Shown in pieces: positions 10,270 through 49,575 of a stretch of DNA of 64,000 nt. The DNA lies in contig NC_018868.3 in assembly GCF_000305785.2 (NCBI RefSeq), positions 2,080,001 to 2,144,000 on the forward strand, in the 5' to 3' direction. A program made the translations under genes and the position numbers. How positions within the stretch are numbered: position 1 is the stretch's first letter; every line of letters starts with the position of its first letter. The notes under the pieces are model-generated. The model had not been told where the DNA came from. It saw only the letters and a program-made list of their open reading frames with translations, and searched no databases. The stretch comes from Simiduia agarivorans SA1 = DSM 21679 (GTDB taxonomy: Bacteria > Pseudomonadota > Gammaproteobacteria > Pseudomonadales > Cellvibrionaceae).

Positions 10270-11546
10270 GCCGTTCAGAGCAGCTGTTTTCCGAAGCCCA
10301 GAAAGTCATTCCCGGCGGGGTTAATTCCCCTGTGCGGGCATTCCGTGCCGTGGGGGGCACACCGGTGTTCTTCGAGCGCGCCAAGGGCGCCTACCTGTAT
10401 GACGCCGATGGCAAGGAATACATCGACTATGTGCAGTCCTGGGGCCCCATGATCCTGGGTCACGCCCACCCCGACGTGCTCGCTGCCGTGATCGAGCGGG
10501 CCCAGTCCGGCCTGAGTTTCGGTGCGCCCACCGGCCTAGAAACCGACCTGGCCGAGCGCGTGTGCGCGCTGGTGCCGGGCATGGATATGGTGCGCTTTGT
10601 GAATTCCGGTACCGAAGCCACCATGAGTGCTATTCGCCTGGCCCGGGGTTTTACCGGCCGCGACAAAATTGTGAAATTCGAGGGCTGCTACCACGGTCAC
10701 TCCGATTCCCTGCTGATCAAAGCCGGCTCCGGCGCCCTGACCATGGGCGTGCCCAGCTCGCCCGGCGTGCCCGAAGCATTGGCACAGCACACCATTACCC
10801 TGACCTACAACGACATCGAGGGCGTCAAGCAGGCGTTCGCCGAAATCGGCGATCAGGTGGCGTGCATCATTGTGGAGCCGGTCGCCGGCAACATGAATTG
10901 CGTGCCGCCGGTGGAAGGGTTTTTACAGTGTCTGCGCCAGGTGTGTGACCAGCACGGCGCGCTCCTGATCATTGACGAGGTGATGACCGGCTTCCGCGTT
11001 GGCCTGCGAGGCGCGCAGGGTCACTACGGCGTCACCGCCGACATCACCACCCTGGGCAAAGTCATTGGCGGCGGCATGCCGGTGGGCGCATTTGGTGGCC
11101 GGCGCGAGGTGATGGAAAAAATCGCGCCGCTTGGTCCCGTTTACCAGGCTGGCACCCTGTCGGGCAATCCGGTCGCCATGGCCGCCGGTCTCACCAATCT
11201 GGCGCTGATTTCTGCACCGGGTTTTTACGACCCGATTGTTGCCCGCACCGCGGCACTGACCGATGGCCTGCAGCGCGAAGCGGATGCCGCCGGCGTGCCC
11301 TTTACCACCAACCGGGTGGGCAGCATGTTCGGTTTTTTCTTCACTGAATCCAAACGGGTGGAAAATTTTGCCCAGGTCATGGCCTGCGATATTCCGCGCT
11401 TCAATAAGTTTTTCCACTTGATGCTGGAGCAAGGCGTTTATCTGGCACCGGCTTCCTATGAGGCCGGATTCATGTCGGCTGCACACACCGATGAGGACAT
11501 TGCCCGCACGCTGGAGGCGGCCAGGTCGGCATTCGCGCAGCTCTGA
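10266..11546 (+). CDS. hemL: glutamate-1-semialdehyde 2,1-aminomutase
   Basis: HemL converts glutamate-1-semialdehyde to 5-aminolevulinate, the committed precursor of heme. The 426-residue PLP enzyme starts [18 protein letters not shown] and has [10 protein letters not shown], the cofactor motif [10 protein letters not shown] and the Schiff-base lysine in [18 protein letters not shown]. The ATG at 10266 shares ATGA with the thiE stop. The frame extends 30 codons upstream, inside thiE, but the family start is at 10266. Confidence 0.98.
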
Positions 11547-11553
11547 GGTCACC

Positions 11554-12192
11554 ATGCACGCCTCCCGGGCACGCTGGCTTGAACTGATCATCCTGTTCGG
11601 GTTGTGCCCGCTGGTGGGGTTTGTCGGGCGCCATTGGCTCGGCAGCTGGATGCTGCCGGTGTTGATCGGACTCGCGTTTGCCTGTACCTGGTTGATCCTG
11701 CGCGATCCGGGCTTCAAGCGTTTTCGGCTGGTCAACGCCGGCAACCTGTGGCCCGCATTAAAGCGGCGCCGCGCCGTGTTTGCCACCGGGCTCGCAGCCA
11801 GCGCGCTGTTGTTTGTCAGCGGCGCCGAGGCCGAATGGTTCCGTTTGCCCACGCAGGATACGGGCAGCTGGCTGATACTGCTGGTGGCCTATCCGTTACT
11901 GTCGGTTCTGCCGCAGGAACTGATCTTCCGCACCTTCTTTTTTCATCGCTATAAAAAGATTATCCCCAGCAAAAAACAGCGCGCCTGGCTGTCCGCGAGC
12001 GTGTTTGCCTGGGCGCATATCGTGTACGGCAACTGGGTGGCAGTTTTACTGGCGTTTGCCGGCGGCGTGCTGTTTGCCTTTACCTATGCAAAAAAGCGTT
12101 CCACGCTCGCCTGTGTGGTTGAACACAGCCTGTGGGGTTTATGGCTGTTCAGCTTTGGACTGGGGGAATACCTGGATGCAAACGCACTCTGA
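11554..12192 (+). CDS. CPBP family (ABI/CAAX-like) membrane protein
   Basis: The 212-residue protein has about six or seven transmembrane helices and the three conserved blocks of the CPBP glutamic intramembrane protease family: QELIFRTFFFHR, SVFAWAHIVYGNW and VEHSLWGLWLF. The first block carries QE where the founder enzymes have EE, so the first glutamate is replaced. It starts 7 bases after hemL on the same strand and converges with the PilZ gene. The substrate is unknown. It differs clearly from the MrtJ-type CPBP protein at 49120. Confidence 0.82.
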   Translation: MHASRARWLELIILFGLCPLVGFVGRHWLGSWMLPVLIGLAFACTWLILRDPGFKRFRLVNAGNLWPALKRRRAVFATGLAASALLFVSGAEAEWFRLPTQDTGSWLILLVAYPLLSVLPQELIFRTFFFHRYKKIIPSKKQRAWLSASVFAWAHIVYGNWVAVLLAFAGGVLFAFTYAKKRSTLACVVEHSLWGLWLFSFGLGEYLDANAL

Positions 12193-42274: not shown

Positions 42275-42709
42275 ATGCAAACTATCCACATTGAACGGAT
42301 TTTTCCACTGCCACCCGCCGAATTATTCGCAGAACTCACTCACCACGAGCGGTTCGGCGAAATCATGGGCCAGAATATCCTGACGCTGAAGGCCGCTGAG
42401 GGAGAAGCCAGCTGCGGCGTGGGCTCTGTCCGACAGATCCCGCTGGGCATTGGACTCACGTTCGAGGAAACCGTTCGCAGTTATGTACCCGGCCAATTGA
42501 TGGAGTACCAGGTCACGCGCGGCAGCCCGGTGACCGAACATTGGGGCCGGATGGCATTCCACCCCCACCCGCGCGGCTGCCGGTTGCTCTACAGCATCCG
42601 GTTTCAACCCCGCATCCCGTTCACCGGAGGGCTGATCGCCGTGGCCTTGCGCCGGGCGCTGACCCGGGGGCTGGACCGCTACCGCGATCGATTGCCATTG
42701 CGAGATTAG
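42275..42709 (+). CDS. SRPBCC (START-like) family protein
   Basis: The 144-residue product looks like a ligand-binding SRPBCC domain: IERIFPLPPAELFAELTHHERF at the start, then GSVRQIPL and a long C-terminal helix (IAVALRRALTRGLDRYRDRL). Members bind lipids or other hydrophobic ligands, or take part in polyketide or ubiquinone pathways. It diverges from the VOC gene and is 62 bases upstream of the M13 peptidase on the same strand. Confidence 0.82.
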   Translation: MQTIHIERIFPLPPAELFAELTHHERFGEIMGQNILTLKAAEGEASCGVGSVRQIPLGIGLTFEETVRSYVPGQLMEYQVTRGSPVTEHWGRMAFHPHPRGCRLLYSIRFQPRIPFTGGLIAVALRRALTRGLDRYRDRLPLRD

Positions 42710-42771
42710 GCCCGTCACACGTCCCTTATGTGAGAGTTTTTTCCATTCCTCTAACAACAACAGGGAACCCT

Positions 42772-44819
42772 ATGAACACGCTCCTTTCCAAGAGCTTGCC
42801 CATTGCACTGCTGGCGGCTGCCATCGCCGGCTGCAATGCGGACAAACCCGCCAACGACGCCGCTCAACCTGCTGCTCTGGTCAGCGGGATAGACAAAGCC
42901 AATGCCGATCCGAGCGTACGCGCTCAGGATGACTTCTACCGGCATGTGAACGGCCATTGGCTCGACACCAAAGAAATCCCGGCCGACAAATCCAATTACG
43001 GCTCCTTCACCAAACTGGCCGATGAGGCCGAGGTGCAGCTCAGAGCCATTATTGAAGACGCGGCCAAAGCCGGCGCCCAAGCCGGCACCGAAAAACAGAA
43101 AGTGGGCGATTTCTTCAACAGCTACATGAACACCGACAAGTTGGAAACACTGGGCACCCAGCCGCTGCAGCCACTGCTGGCGGAAGTGGACGCCATTGCT
43201 TCCAAAGACGCGCTGATGACCTGGTTTGGCAACGCTTCCCGTTCCGGCGTGAAAACCCCGGTGGTGTCTTTTATCAACCCCAGGATAAGCGCGACGCCAC
43301 CCGGTACGCGGTATACACCTACCAAAGCGGCCTGGGGCTGCCCGACCGCGACTACTACTTCAAGGACGATGAAAAAAGCGTCAGCCTGCGCGCAGCTTAT
43401 AAGGCTCACATTGCCAAGATGCTGACACTGGCCGGGATTGAGGCCGATGCCGAGGCGATTTACGCCATCGAAGAAGCGCTGGCTGAAGGCCATTGGGCCC
43501 GGGTAGATAATCGCGACCCGGTAAAAACCTACAACAAAATGCCGCAAGCAGAGCTCAATACCCTGGCAGCGGGCGTGGCCTGGGCCAACTGGACCAAAGC
43601 CCTGGGCATCGACGGCGAAGCCGATATCATCGTATACCAGCCGTCCTACCTGACCGCATTCGCTCAGGTCATGGCAGACAAGCCACTGGCAGACTGGAAA
43701 GCCTATGCCAAATGGCAGCTCGCGGCCGGTGCGGCGCCTTTGCTGAACAAAGCGCTGGACGACGAAAGCTTTAACTTCAACAAGAAAACCCTGCGCGGCA
43801 TCGAAGCCCAGCAGGAGCGCTGGAAGCGTGCAGTGCAATTCACCGACGACGTGATTGGCGAGGCGGTTGGCAAAATTTACGTGGAGAAGCATTTTCCGCC
43901 GGAAGCCAAGGCGCGCATGGAAACCCTGGTGCAGAATCTGTTGCTGGCCTTTGGCGAGGGCATCGATGGCCTGGAGTGGATGACCCCCGAAACCAAGGTG
44001 GCGGCACGCGAAAAGCTGGCCAAGTTCACCTACAAAATTGGCTACCCGGATAAATGGCGCGATTACAGCTCGCTGGAGATCAAAGCTGACGACCTGTTTG
44101 GTAACGCCCAGCGCGCAGCGGCATTCGAATACCAGCGCAACCTGGCCAAGCTTGGCGCCCCAATCGATAAAACCGAATGGTACATGACGCCCCAAACCGT
44201 TAATGCTTATTACAACCCGGTGGCCAACGAAATCGTATTCCCGGCCGCCATCCTGCAACCACCTTTCTTTAACATGGCGGCGGATGATGCGGTGAATTAC
44301 GGTGGCATTGGCGCCGTGATCGGCCACGAAATCGGTCACGGTTTTGACGATTCCGGCAGCCAGTACGATGGCGATGGCAATCTGCGCAACTGGTGGACCG
44401 ATTCCGATCGCACCGAGTTTGAACAGCGCACCACTGCACTGGTGGAGCAGTACAACGCGTTTGAGCCCCTGCCGGGCGAATTTGTCAACGGCAAGTTCAC
44501 CCTGGGTGAAAACATCGGCGACCTGGGCGGCTTAACCATTGCGCACAAGGCCTATGGTCTGTCCCTGGCTGGCAAGCCGGCGCCGGTGCTGGACGGGCTC
44601 ACGGGTGACCAGCGTTTCTTCATGGGCTGGGCCCAGGTGTGGGCGCGCAAGTACCGCACTGAAGAGTTATCCCAGCGCTTGGTTACCGACCCCCACTCGC
44701 CCAGCGAATACCGTTGTAACGGTATCGTGCGCAATATGCCCGAGTTCTATCAGGCATTTGACGTGAAAGCTGGCGATGGCCTCTATCTGGCGCCCGAGCA
44801 GCGGGTCAAGATCTGGTAA
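42772..44819 (+). pseudogene. M13 family metallopeptidase lipoprotein, disrupted by a one-base frameshift
   Basis: The gene encodes an M13 (neprilysin-like/PepO) zinc peptidase with lipoprotein leader (lipobox AIAGC). Frame 1 gives the N-terminal part from 42772 to the C-run at 43278-43281; after that the family sequence continues in frame 3 (QDKRDATRYAVYTYQSGLGL). Adding one C would restore one frame. The catalytic HEIGH in GAVIGHEIGHGFDD, GENIGDLGG, NAYYNPVANEIVFPA and C-terminal YLAPEQRVKIW are all intact downstream. This is either a sequencing error in a homopolymer or a recent mutation. Repaired, the product would be about 682 residues and lipid-anchored in the periplasm or outer membrane. 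Confidence 0.88.
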
Positions 44820-45650: not shown

Positions 45651-46445
45651 TTACTGCGCGGTACGGCGACGCGCGGCAGCCAGCCCCAACAAACCCAGGC
45701 CCAGCAAAAACAGGGAGCCCGGCTCAGGCACACTGGAATAACCAATCGCCTCGATGTAACCACCGGGTGCATCGTTCCAGCCGGTGGCGGCAATCGCGTA
45801 GTAGCTGTAGCCCGTGTTCAGTCCCGTCATCAAAAACTCGCTGTCGGTAGGCGTTCTCTGAGACAAGCCATTGCTCGCGGGTGCGAACACAGACGAGTAA
45901 TTAATCCCGTCCAGACTGTAGAAAATATTGAACATGGTGGGATTGCCCGCTTCACTGATCCCGGTATGTTCAGAGTGACCACCATTGAACCAGACCTGGT
46001 CCAGAATCACGTCGAAGGAAAAGTTGAAGAACAGGATTTCGTCACCGGCACTGGAGGAATAGACATTCGGCTCCAGATTGTCGGTATCGCGATTAAAGCG
46101 GCTGTCATCACCCGCGGTGTAGGCGCCAAGGCCACCGTGCTTGGGATCAACATCCTGATAAACCACGCCACTGACGTTGGGATCAATGTGATTGGTGGTA
46201 TTGAATCCCGGCTGCGCCAGGTTTTTGTTGGCGGTGGAAATACCCGCGGTGACCACGAAATCACCGAAACCCAGCGCACTGCCATACGCATCGCCACTGG
46301 TTTTGACACTGCCGCCGGTACCGGTCAGCACATCACCCGCCTTGGCAACACCGCCGCTGTTATTGTCAAAAATGACCACTGTGGCCTGCGCCAGACCAGT
46401 CACAGACGCCAGCGCCACCGCCCCTAACATTTGAGCAAATTTCAT
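45651..46445 (-). CDS. PEP-CTERM sorting domain protein
   Basis: The 264-residue product has a signal peptide (cleavage near LAQA) and a beta-rich secreted domain, ending in the PEP-CTERM tail: VPEPGSLFLLGLGLLGL followed by RRR. Such proteins are processed by exosortase (XrtA/EpsH type) at the membrane and released or placed in the biofilm matrix. No exosortase is in this window. The middle domain (DEILFFNFSFDVILDQVWF; GYSYYAIAATGW) resembles a jelly-roll surface domain but I do not name it. The start ATG is at 46445; a sigma-54-like element lies upstream. Confidence 0.92.
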   Translation of the reverse strand: MKFAQMLGAVALASVTGLAQATVVIFDNNSGGVAKAGDVLTGTGGSVKTSGDAYGSALGFGDFVVTAGISTANKNLAQPGFNTTNHIDPNVSGVVYQDVDPKHGGLGAYTAGDDSRFNRDTDNLEPNVYSSSAGDEILFFNFSFDVILDQVWFNGGHSEHTGISEAGNPTMFNIFYSLDGINYSSVFAPASNGLSQRTPTDSEFLMTGLNTGYSYYAIAATGWNDAPGGYIEAIGYSSVPEPGSLFLLGLGLLGLAAARRRTAQ

Positions 46446-46768: not shown

Positions 46769-47473
46769 ATGAACAAGGTTAAACTGTTGGCCGCCACGAT
46801 AGTGGTAACGGCCACTTTGGGTACGCAGGCCTCTGCCGCCACACCCAATCAGGTCATGCGCATGGATACCAACGCACAAGGACAAGCCCACGGACTGTTC
46901 CAGATCCAGGGGCCCATCACCCCCACCTCTCAGGCAGTACAGAAAGCCGCGCGCGAAGGCGCCGCCGACTCGCTGCTGAGCAAGGCCAGGGCGTTTTTCT
47001 GGGATCACCAGACAATGCTGGGCGCAGGTGCCGGCGATCTGGTGCTGCACAAGCAAAACACCGATGCCTTTGGCAATCAGCATTTGCGTTTTTACCGCAC
47101 CCTGGCCGGCATTCCGGTGAAAGACATGGAAGTGCTGGTCCATTTTGACTCCGCCGGCAATATGACCAGCGTCAATGGCGAGATCGTTCAACTGTCGCCA
47201 GCGCTGGAAACCCACATGGCCAGCCAGCGCCCGCGCATCAGCGAGGCCGACGCCCTGGCAGCGGTGGCAACGCTGCGCAATACCACGCCCGATCAATTGC
47301 GTTTGCTGTCCGCCAAACAATGGCTGTTCAATGAAGCTCCCCACGTGCGTTGGCACCTGGATTTAAACCCCGAGAACGGCATCGACAGATTCAGTTACTG
47401 GCTGGATGCGGAAACCGGCGCCCTGATAGACGTGCAGAACACCCTGCGCCATCCCATTCCCTTCCGTCGCTGA
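46769..47473 (+). CDS. stand-alone FTP (thermolysin propeptide) domain protein
   Basis: The 234-residue exported product has a signal peptide (cleavage near ASA-AT) and a fungalysin/thermolysin propeptide (FTP) domain (LRFYRTLAGIPVKDMEVLVH; GNMTSVNGEIV), then a short C-terminal PepSY-like part (RWHLDLNP, SYWLDAETGALIDVQN). In ordinary M4 proteases these are the N-terminal propeptide that folds and inhibits the enzyme. Here it is a separate gene ending 10 bases before the M4 protease gene, which lacks its own propeptide, so it probably acts in trans. The start is ATG 46769. Confidence 0.88.
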   Translation: MNKVKLLAATIVVTATLGTQASAATPNQVMRMDTNAQGQAHGLFQIQGPITPTSQAVQKAAREGAADSLLSKARAFFWDHQTMLGAGAGDLVLHKQNTDAFGNQHLRFYRTLAGIPVKDMEVLVHFDSAGNMTSVNGEIVQLSPALETHMASQRPRISEADALAAVATLRNTTPDQLRLLSAKQWLFNEAPHVRWHLDLNPENGIDRFSYWLDAETGALIDVQNTLRHPIPFRR

Positions 47474-47483
47474 GGAAAGCCCC

Positions 47484-49127
47484 ATGCATTACATTTTTTC
47501 AAGCGCCGGCCTGCTTTTCGCGGGCGCGCTGCTCGCCGCTGGCGCCGCCCATGCCGATAGCCTGAGCAAAGGCAATATCGCCCAATTCAGTTTTGACGGC
47601 ACCGCCGGTAACAGCTATGAAATCGGCTTCAATGCGCAGAACACCTGCCCTACCAGTGCCAGTAAAAGCTGCTGCGTATTGCTGGTGAACAATGGCGCCC
47701 AGCAACCGACCTCGGGCTCCTTTGAGCAGGCCGTTGCCGCACCAGATACCAGTGTCGCCTCGGTGGTGGTAGACAAGGCCAGCGACGGTAAAATTTCAGC
47801 CGCGATTTACGCCATAGAAAACTGCGAGTACACGCCACCCAGCATCGTCGCCATCAGGGCCACGTCAGAGACTCTGCAATTCGGTTCAGGCAATGGCCAA
47901 CTGGGCGAAAGCTACAGCGCGGTACCCACCACCCAGACCGCTGACGGCGGTGGATTTATGCTGCGCGATATCAGCCGACGCGCCAGCATGGAGGGCATTA
48001 ATGACAACCCCAACGCCGGCCAGATGAGTGATACCAGCGCCATTACCGCGCGCCGGGTGTTTGGCTATTGGTCTGCCAACGACCTGTTCCTGTCGGACAA
48101 CCCGAAGGACAGCGATGGCGTTTACAACACCAGCGCCCAATCGGAGCTGCTCGACGCGTTGATGAACTCCGGCAAGGTCTACGACTACTGGCAGTCAGTG
48201 CTGGGCTTCAACAGTTTTGACAATAACAGCGCCACCATGGACGCGCTGACCAATGCGCCTTTCCCACCGGCGCCTGCAACTTTCTGTGGCGAAGTCATTC
48301 CCGCCGGCTCGCTCTACAACGCGTTCTGGAATGGCTATGAAATTGTCTTCACTCCGCGCGATTTCACCAGCGCCCGTTCCGGCAATTACTACGCCAACAG
48401 CCTGGCCGCCGCGCTCGATGTCACCGCGCACGAATGGGGTCATGCCATCTCTGATCGCGCGGTAAATCTCACCTACGCACGCGAGTCCGGTGCACTGAAC
48501 GAGGCCTACTCGGATTGGATGGGCGTAGCGGTTGAACTGGCCAACGGCGAAGACAACTGGACCATGGGTGAAGGCGTTGCCCTGATACGCGATCTGGCCA
48601 ATCCGGCGCGATTCGGCGACCCCGATACTTATCAGGGCGAAAACTGGCAGCCCACCGATACCGTGTCCTGTTCTACCCCGGATATCTGTGTGAACGACTA
48701 CTGCGGTGTTCACACCAACAGCGGTGTGGCCAACAAGATGTTCTACCTGCTCGCTGCCGGTGGCACGCACAACGGCATTGAAGTGCAAGGCATCGGCGCG
48801 GATGTTGCGCTGCAGATCGCCACCGATGCGCTGCACAACTACTGGACCTCAAATGTGGATTTTGCCGGCGCCAAGGCGGGCATGATTTCCGCTGCAGCCA
48901 ACTACGGTGACAATGCGGTTGAACAAACCCGCAAAGCCTGGGAGGCCGTGGGTGTCAGCGAAAGCAAAGCCGACTGCAATGGCGGCACTATTTTCGGCAA
49001 AAGCTGTGGCAGTAGCAGCGGCGGTGGCGGTTGTGCGCTGGGCAACCCCGATGGCGATATCGACCCCACGCTGTATTTACTGCTCCTGCTGGCACTGGTG
49101 ACACTGGTCCGCCGTCGCATTGTCTGA
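47484..49127 (+). CDS. M4 thermolysin-like metalloprotease with JDVT-CTERM sorting tail
   Basis: The 547-residue protein has a signal peptide, a beta-rich N-terminal domain (about 30-140) with a double Cys, and an M4 catalytic domain. HEWGH (316-320) and E340 in GALNEAYSDW form the zinc site, and CGVHTNSGVANKMFYLL holds the transition-state histidine. A Ser/Gly-rich Cys linker leads to the C-terminal DIDPTL, a hydrophobic helix and RRR: the JDVT-CTERM pattern (D527-P-T-L530). It should be exported, anchored by the tail and then cut by MrtJ, whose gene overlaps the stop by 8 bases. GAGGA lies before the ATG. Confidence 0.9.
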   Translation: MHYIFSSAGLLFAGALLAAGAAHADSLSKGNIAQFSFDGTAGNSYEIGFNAQNTCPTSASKSCCVLLVNNGAQQPTSGSFEQAVAAPDTSVASVVVDKASDGKISAAIYAIENCEYTPPSIVAIRATSETLQFGSGNGQLGESYSAVPTTQTADGGGFMLRDISRRASMEGINDNPNAGQMSDTSAITARRVFGYWSANDLFLSDNPKDSDGVYNTSAQSELLDALMNSGKVYDYWQSVLGFNSFDNNSATMDALTNAPFPPAPATFCGEVIPAGSLYNAFWNGYEIVFTPRDFTSARSGNYYANSLAAALDVTAHEWGHAISDRAVNLTYARESGALNEAYSDWMGVAVELANGEDNWTMGEGVALIRDLANPARFGDPDTYQGENWQPTDTVSCSTPDICVNDYCGVHTNSGVANKMFYLLAAGGTHNGIEVQGIGADVALQIATDALHNYWTSNVDFAGAKAGMISAAANYGDNAVEQTRKAWEAVGVSESKADCNGGTIFGKSCGSSSGGGGCALGNPDGDIDPTLYLLLLLALVTLVRRRIV

Positions 49128-49575
49128 ACCAGACGTCCCCGCACCGGCGCCAGACGCTTTACCTTTCTGGCGCCAATCCACCTGGCGCATTTGCACTGTG
49201 GTCGGCACCTTGGTGGCGCTGGCCCTCGGTGCCTGGATGCCCGTCTCCCTGACGCCATTCCAGCTGGTGCTGCTGGTCATTCTCTTTCCCCTGCTGGAGG
49301 AGATTGTGTTCCGGGGGCTGGTCCAACCCCTGATTGCCCGCCACTGGCGCGCGCGCTGGCAACAGCTGAGTCTGGCCAACATGGCCACATCGGCACTGTT
49401 TGCGCTGGCACATGTGGCCAGCCGCGGCCCCTCGCCGCTGACCGTGGGCGTATTCATTCCATCTCTGTTGTTCGGCCACGCAGCAGAGTCCAATCGGGGC
49501 AAGCTGGGTGCACCGATTGCCATGCACATGGCCTTCAATGCGGGCTTTTTTTTACCGGGGCTGATCGCGCATTAA
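49120..49575 (+). CDS. mrtJ: JDVT-CTERM system glutamic-type intramembrane protease MrtJ
   Basis: The 151-residue CPBP-family protein has four to five transmembrane helices and the full active-site set: EEIVFRG (E60, E61, R65), ALAHV with its histidine and HMAFNAGFF with another histidine. It is much shorter than the CPBP protein at 11554 and lies directly after a JDVT-CTERM protein, the defining neighbourhood of MrtJ. It likely cuts the tail of the upstream protease. The start is TTG 49120, overlapping the protease stop by 8 bases with no good ribosome site, so translation is probably coupled. Confidence 0.8.
   Translation: MSEPDVPAPAPDALPFWRQSTWRICTVVGTLVALALGAWMPVSLTPFQLVLLVILFPLLEEIVFRGLVQPLIARHWRARWQQLSLANMATSALFALAHVASRGPSPLTVGVFIPSLLFGHAAESNRGKLGAPIAMHMAFNAGFFLPGLIAH

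Follow-up and report, generated by a model that had tools for sequence, protein, structure and literature searches.

Three co-directional genes of Simiduia agarivorans SA1, located at positions 46769-49575 of the window (the whole analysed stretch of DNA, 64,000 nucleotides), encode an FTP propeptide protein, an M4 metalloprotease and the CPBP protease MrtJ. We consider it fairly likely that they form an operon for a cell-surface M4 protease that receives its propeptide in trans, carries a JDVT-CTERM tail and has its anchor exchanged by MrtJ. The FTP gene (46769..47473, + strand; ATG at 46769, stop at 47473) encodes 234 residues, the M4 precursor gene (47484..49127, +) 547 residues and the mrtJ gene (49120..49575, +; TTG at 49120, stop at 49575) 151 residues when read from the TTG. 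A gap of 10 bases separates the first two genes (+10) and the MrtJ frame, read from its TTG start, overlaps the M4 stop by 8 bases (-8). Placement and spacings of the three genes are as given in the original prediction. Since a simple scan revealed no promoter-like site at the unit, spacing is what points to co-transcription of the three genes.

Products of the three genes

The first gene product matches the FTP model PF07504 at 53.6 bits (cut-off 21) over residues 90-138 (47036..47182, +), also contains a PepSY-like half and starts with a signal peptide as judged by eye, in good agreement with the exported FTP protein that had been predicted. FTP was the sole Pfam match at E up to 1, in a Pfam copy that may or may not contain an emfourin model. 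In addition to the FTP domain, the protein shows the propeptide fold of FTP/PepSY M4 propeptides. Structure comparison with the MCP-02 precursor superposed the FTP model on chain residues 27-204 and the M4 model on residues 205-503, so that the gene break corresponds to residues 204/205, the pro/mature junction of M4 precursors. The FTP protein spans the propeptide fold nearly end to end, and the Foldseek superposition of its model on 3nqz_A was loose (TM 0.41/0.52). From the computed propeptide fold and an end point where propeptides normally end we infer a role in trans, and the folding helper of the M4 protease is probably encoded by a gene of its own. A protein database search returned 16 FTP relatives, the window's own included, and those three that carry an organism name are from Simiduia. 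Our FTP profile (A3) matched 7/144 genomes of the family, four of which carry the window's own genus label, and 117 non-matching genomes outside the listing may include further members of that genus; the remaining three matches are frames of 900-1763 residues which, going by frame length only, we take to be fused.

The second gene product is a peptidase M4 with matches to PF01447 (54.8 bits) and PF02868 (129.4 bits), an HExxH zinc site (HEWGH, residues 316-320; 48429..48443, +) and the distal glutamate Glu340 (48501-48503), which we take to be the third zinc ligand. H316, E317, H320 and E340 are invariant in the 32 rows of our alignment A2. Pfam gave no FTP match in this chain at E up to 1; in contrast to M4 enzymes with a same-chain propeptide, the FTP/PepSY part sits in the upstream gene, as originally proposed. 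An ordinary fused M4 is also present in the same genome (L012, 4288-6474). Between signal peptide and catalytic domain lies an extra N-terminal beta domain (approximately residues 25-126; 47556..47861, +), delimited by the secondary structure of the model, in which Cys63 and Cys114 are invariant and Cys64 nearly so in alignment A2. Foldseek matched this domain weakly, to 1wmd at E 5e-4 and to folds of the GOLD and PliG kinds at E 2e-3 to 6e-3.

Residues 512-545 of the M4 protein (49017..49118, +), comprising GGGGC, DPTL, a hydrophobic helix and RRR, match the JDVT-CTERM model NF033191 at 45.8 bits (cut-off 27) whereas the score for MYXO-CTERM (TIGR03901) stays at 15.7 bits, below the cut-off of 20, which confirms the predicted class of the tail. 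With the threshold set at E 10, neither a PEP-CTERM nor a GlyGly-CTERM model picked up the M4 protein. As in JDVT-CTERM proteins generally, a cysteine (Cys517; 49032-49034, +), a hydrophobic helix and an arginine cluster are found at the extreme C-terminus, the helix occupying residues 528-546 of the predicted model, where pLDDT is low to middling.

The third gene product could be identified as MrtJ, as anticipated, based on an NF033192 match of 102.4 bits (cut-off 75), together with 60.7 bits for PF02517. It contains the catalytic EExxxR, His and HxxxN residues, namely EEIVFR at residue 60 (49297-49314, +), H98 (49411-49413, +; motif search) and HMAFN at residue 136 (49525-49539, +), and its gene adjoins that of a JDVT-CTERM protein. 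The start is uncertain: the protein database version has 125 residues, and by eye the likeness to the S. aestuariiviva frame extends upstream of that start. A further CPBP-family protease encoded in the window (11458-12192, +; PF02517 49.3 bits) is absent from the MrtJ profile matches.

Distribution of the unit and of MrtJ

In four genomes of the genus, i.e. the window's, G777, G778 and G779, one and the same locus carries the genes in the order FTP, M4 with JDVT tail, MrtJ. The tails score 45.8, 48.5, 33.0 and 27.9 bits against a cut-off of 27, and the MrtJ proteins 102.4, 94.0, 93.6 and 95.4 bits against one of 75, respectively. The G777 locus is identical to an S. aestuariiviva contig over the 3.2 kb compared. 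The genus loci also have their flanks in common, with an M13 peptidase gene and a hemolysin III-like one on the upstream side and an amylase-type pair behind the unit. Genes directly preceding the unit vary, with a PEP-CTERM gene in the window and kinase-like frames in the other three genomes, and G778 has one additional gene behind the unit. The M13 peptidase gene of the window (42541-44819) consists of two overlapping frames (42541-43425 and 43419-44819) and is a single frame of 684-687 residues in G777, G778 and G779, so that either a frameshift or a sequence error is present. The PEP-CTERM gene adjoins the unit (45651-46445, - strand; PF07589 32.6 bits) and thus places a second, unrelated C-terminal sorting tag next door.

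The same gene order was also observed in G042, a genome of another family, where a frame of 272 residues whose FTP match stays below threshold (16.1 bits against a cut-off of 21) precedes an M4 gene and an mrtJ gene (92.5 bits). The M4 tail in this case matches MYXO-CTERM (22.4 bits, cut-off 20) and gave no JDVT match. The predicted conservation of the three-gene order is therefore borne out in the genus and, at lower scores for FTP and tail, in G042. A metagenome contig probably carries the unit too, as P0002, P0017 and P0138 are each assigned to a contig of the same length, 3846 bases. A widespread three-gene module was considered and rejected, as A2 matches few genomes of the order and class: 3/293 order genomes at E 1e-40 (its own, G042 and a weak match in G118; best five or fewer candidates per genome) and 1/369 class genomes at E 1e-60 (its own; best three or fewer candidates per genome).

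At the level of the order, MrtJ exceeded its cut-off in 19/293 genomes and the JDVT tail in 14/293, with MrtJ being present in 13 of the 14 tail-containing genomes of this sample vs 6 of the 279 others. One genome (G025) has two JDVT tails, with MrtJ absent at E 1e-12 and no CPBP frame in the 36 kb around the tails by motif search. The expected linkage of the CPBP gene to a tailed protein holds in 14/19 MrtJ genomes, counting G042 by its MYXO-like tail, and fails in 5/19, four of which belong to one genus while one lies about 600 bases from a contig end. At L082, L083, L084 and L096, each from a different genome of one genus, MrtJ is over cut-off while there is no tailed protein nearby and no JDVT tail in the genome at E 0.001, and MrtJ perhaps acts on another target class there. 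A scan of eight tailed proteins encoded next to MrtJ or close by identified a subtilase, a reprolysin-like, a VWA, two Ig/cadherin and one HYR protein; two of the eight had no Pfam match at E 1e-5.

The window's genome encodes a second JDVT-tailed protein (1117 residues; L011, 4507-7860) about 1.5 Mb away, with Sortilin-Vps10, fn3 and CBM_4_9 matches. Its tail scored 29.6 bits in the genome search (cut-off 27) but 24.4 bits in a whole-protein scan, and its GGGGC and DPTL tail is clear by eye. The genome contains a single MrtJ, which probably serves at least this one further protein. Because of the second target, the unit is not self-contained as had been claimed, and a one-enzyme, one-substrate unit is rejected for this genome; the MYXO-CTERM model, as set out in PMC11980579, additionally requires a lipidating enzyme and a type II secretion system (T2SS), both with genes elsewhere. 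The same observation, together with the unrelated cargo found beside MrtJ in the order sample (subtilase, reprolysin-like, VWA, Ig/cadherin, HYR), raises the possibility that MrtJ is a general sorting enzyme encoded beside one of its substrates and that the three genes constitute no functional unit. The gene order is nevertheless fixed in the four genus genomes and G042, and the one JDVT tail of S. aestuariiviva (E 0.001) is that of the M4 protease. We regard such a general role as possible rather than probable, and it is compatible with a surface-protease operon since the mechanism of MrtJ would otherwise be identical.

Split propeptides and anchors in related proteases

Neighbouring genes were examined at nine of 32 loci (L044-L052, leaving out L053-L075), and L050-L052, with long frames of 898, 1644 and 1123 residues, were left uncounted. 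Four of the five lipobox-type loci examined keep a separate FTP gene (L045, L046, L047 and L048), in each case a small gene directly upstream of M4 with a PF07504 match over cut-off. At L049, from the same symbiont as L048, the 678 bases covered contain no upstream frame of at least 40 residues in the orientation of the M4 gene. None of the five lipobox loci contains a CPBP-motif frame, overlapping frames included, the 3' side of L047 covering 267 bases. MrtJ was absent at E 1e-8 from the genomes of L045 and L046 in a profile search, and the L048 genome, from a mussel symbiont, encodes MrtJ elsewhere (105 bits), adjoining a different tailed protein. The split propeptide occurs more widely than the JDVT tail. 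The Bathymodiolus brooksi symbiont (L048, L115; genome G296) has 13 JDVT tails above the cut-off, spread over many contigs, and one MrtJ at E 1e-8; its split M4 is of the lipobox type.

The FTP gene lies upstream of the protease gene in all nine loci where both were found. This position argues against a main role of the FTP protein as a separate inhibitor or immunity-like guard, comparable to that of emfourin towards protealysin, instead of a folding helper. Precedents for an inhibitor do exist, and two papers describe stand-alone propeptide-like inhibitors of subtilases (PMC6993865) and emfourin as a separate inhibitor gene within an M4 operon (PMC9505478). However, the M4 chain studied here is without any other propeptide and its partner covers nearly the entire propeptide fold, making a mainly inhibitory role rather unlikely.

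The rows of A2, which are M4 proteins without FTP, were sorted by anchor. In 22/32 rows the protein ends in an extension consisting of GC, a hydrophobic stretch and basic residues, and the 10/32 tail-less rows stop at most 10 residues past the catalytic domain; C-terminal extension length gives the same 22/32. Initially, 19/33 rows were called tailed by script; visual inspection of the alignment brought in P0018, P0029, P0031 and P0032 to give 23, and P0039, which is without N-terminus, was then left out. A further 16 proteins (P0049-P0063 and others beyond A2) are outside this census. A lipobox-like N-terminal cysteine was present in all 10 tail-less rows (nine by pattern, P0047 by eye) whereas only three of the 22 tailed rows contained the pattern (P0018, P0022 and P0034), located inside the signal peptide with hydrophobic residues following. 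Fisher's test on the lipobox pattern counts, in which kinship is ignored, yielded p = 7e-5. Relatives of the M4 protease seem to have their anchor at the opposite end, in the usual manner. Since tail-less relatives show the lipobox-like cysteine, tail plus MrtJ may do the job of the lipoprotein signal and take the place of an ordinary lipoprotein anchor.

A catalytic-domain tree of 51 rows can account for the tail with as little as a single change, and support for the branch on which this depends is weak (24/16). Lipobox rows P0037 and P0040-P0042 fall into an unresolved fork with tailed groups, and the tree shows no repeated anchor swaps. An exchange between tail and lipobox occurred, perhaps only once, and because the tree allows one change with a weak branch at that point, the census may count a single event. 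More tentatively, these proteins could represent a rare M4 subfamily with a separate propeptide gene, in which the protease is lipid-anchored at one end or the other, through a lipobox at the N-terminus or through a JDVT-type tail at the C-terminus that travels together with mrtJ. If so, tail and MrtJ would constitute a lipoprotein pathway inverted to the C-terminus that could stand in for the classical one and vice versa, and a split propeptide would suit a protease tethered to the surface of its own cell.

Proposed mechanism and comparison with known systems

In the mechanism we propose, the FTP protein would be exported separately and act as trans folding helper and temporary inhibitor of the M4 protease. 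The exported M4 chain would be held in the inner membrane, with the C-terminal helix serving as its tether. Based on the MrtX model, a general enzyme such as Lgt would then attach a lipid to Cys517, with MrtJ cutting beyond this residue, so that the helix is exchanged for a lipid. Finally, the protease, once folded, would be carried by the T2SS to the outer surface and remain there; a T2SS secretin was found in the window's genome. With the propeptide being a soluble protein of its own, autocleavage at the pro/mature junction would be unneeded, and dissociation or digestion of the FTP inhibitor would suffice. Free secretion is common among M4 enzymes, and by eye the tail is, signal peptide aside, the only hydrophobic membrane helix of the protein. 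It is nevertheless improbable that MrtJ frees the protease into the medium from a temporary membrane tether, the outcome implied by the earlier claim that it sets release from the membrane: a tail cut off without lipid would indeed free the enzyme, but this tail contains a cysteine, and release becomes less likely than helix-to-lipid exchange because MrtX, an experimentally tested relative of MrtJ, is required for surface anchoring of TraA (PMC11980579) and tail-less relatives have lipobox-like cysteines. By analogy, the neighbouring enzyme probably replaces the M4 tail with a lipid anchor. In case of MYXO-CTERM, PMC11980579 reports cysteine-dependent cleavage and surface anchoring as shown and the lipid step as proposed, with the lipidating enzyme unidentified even there.

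MrtJ and a single JDVT protein are already known as a conserved two-gene neighbourhood (Haft 2024, as described in PMC11980579), so that the pair itself is not new. Literature searches, with subscription papers mostly outside reach, retrieved no report of a split M4 or an anchor exchange and no separately encoded M4 propeptide, and a search on Simiduia metalloproteases gave no M4 case with a separate propeptide. Within the M4 family, the split propeptide would provide a naturally occurring pair for folding in trans. Further, homologous proteases, some with a lipobox at the N-terminus and others with a JDVT tail at the C-terminus, allow a direct swap experiment on what MrtJ-type cleavage achieves.

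Several known systems share parts of this arrangement. GlyGly-CTERM proteins, as described in PMC11980579, likewise have a tripartite C-terminal tail and are retained at the surface, but are processed by rhombosortase, a rhomboid serine protease, instead of a CPBP glutamic protease, and our M4 protein had no GlyGly-CTERM match at E up to 10. The protealysin/emfourin operon also co-encodes an M4 protease and a separate protein, emfourin binding protealysin according to PMC9505478, whereas the partner found here scores as an FTP propeptide and shows no other Pfam match at E up to 1. The MYXO-CTERM/MrtX system, as described in PMC11980579, has the same tripartite tail with cysteine and a CPBP enzyme with EExxxR and HxxxN motifs. 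It differs in that our tail scores 15.7 bits, below the cut-off of 20, and in that an adjacent pair and two JDVT proteins are found here compared with 35 MYXO-CTERM proteins in M. xanthus. Vibriolysin and thermolysin precursors share the M4 catalytic and propeptide folds, while the system described here has a separate propeptide gene, an extra N-terminal beta domain and a C-terminal sorting tail. Lastly, MrtJ/JDVT-CTERM two-gene systems resemble ours in placing a CPBP gene beside its JDVT-tailed target, both over NCBIfam cut-offs, whereas in S. agarivorans a third co-directional gene encodes the propeptide and a second, unlinked JDVT target is present.
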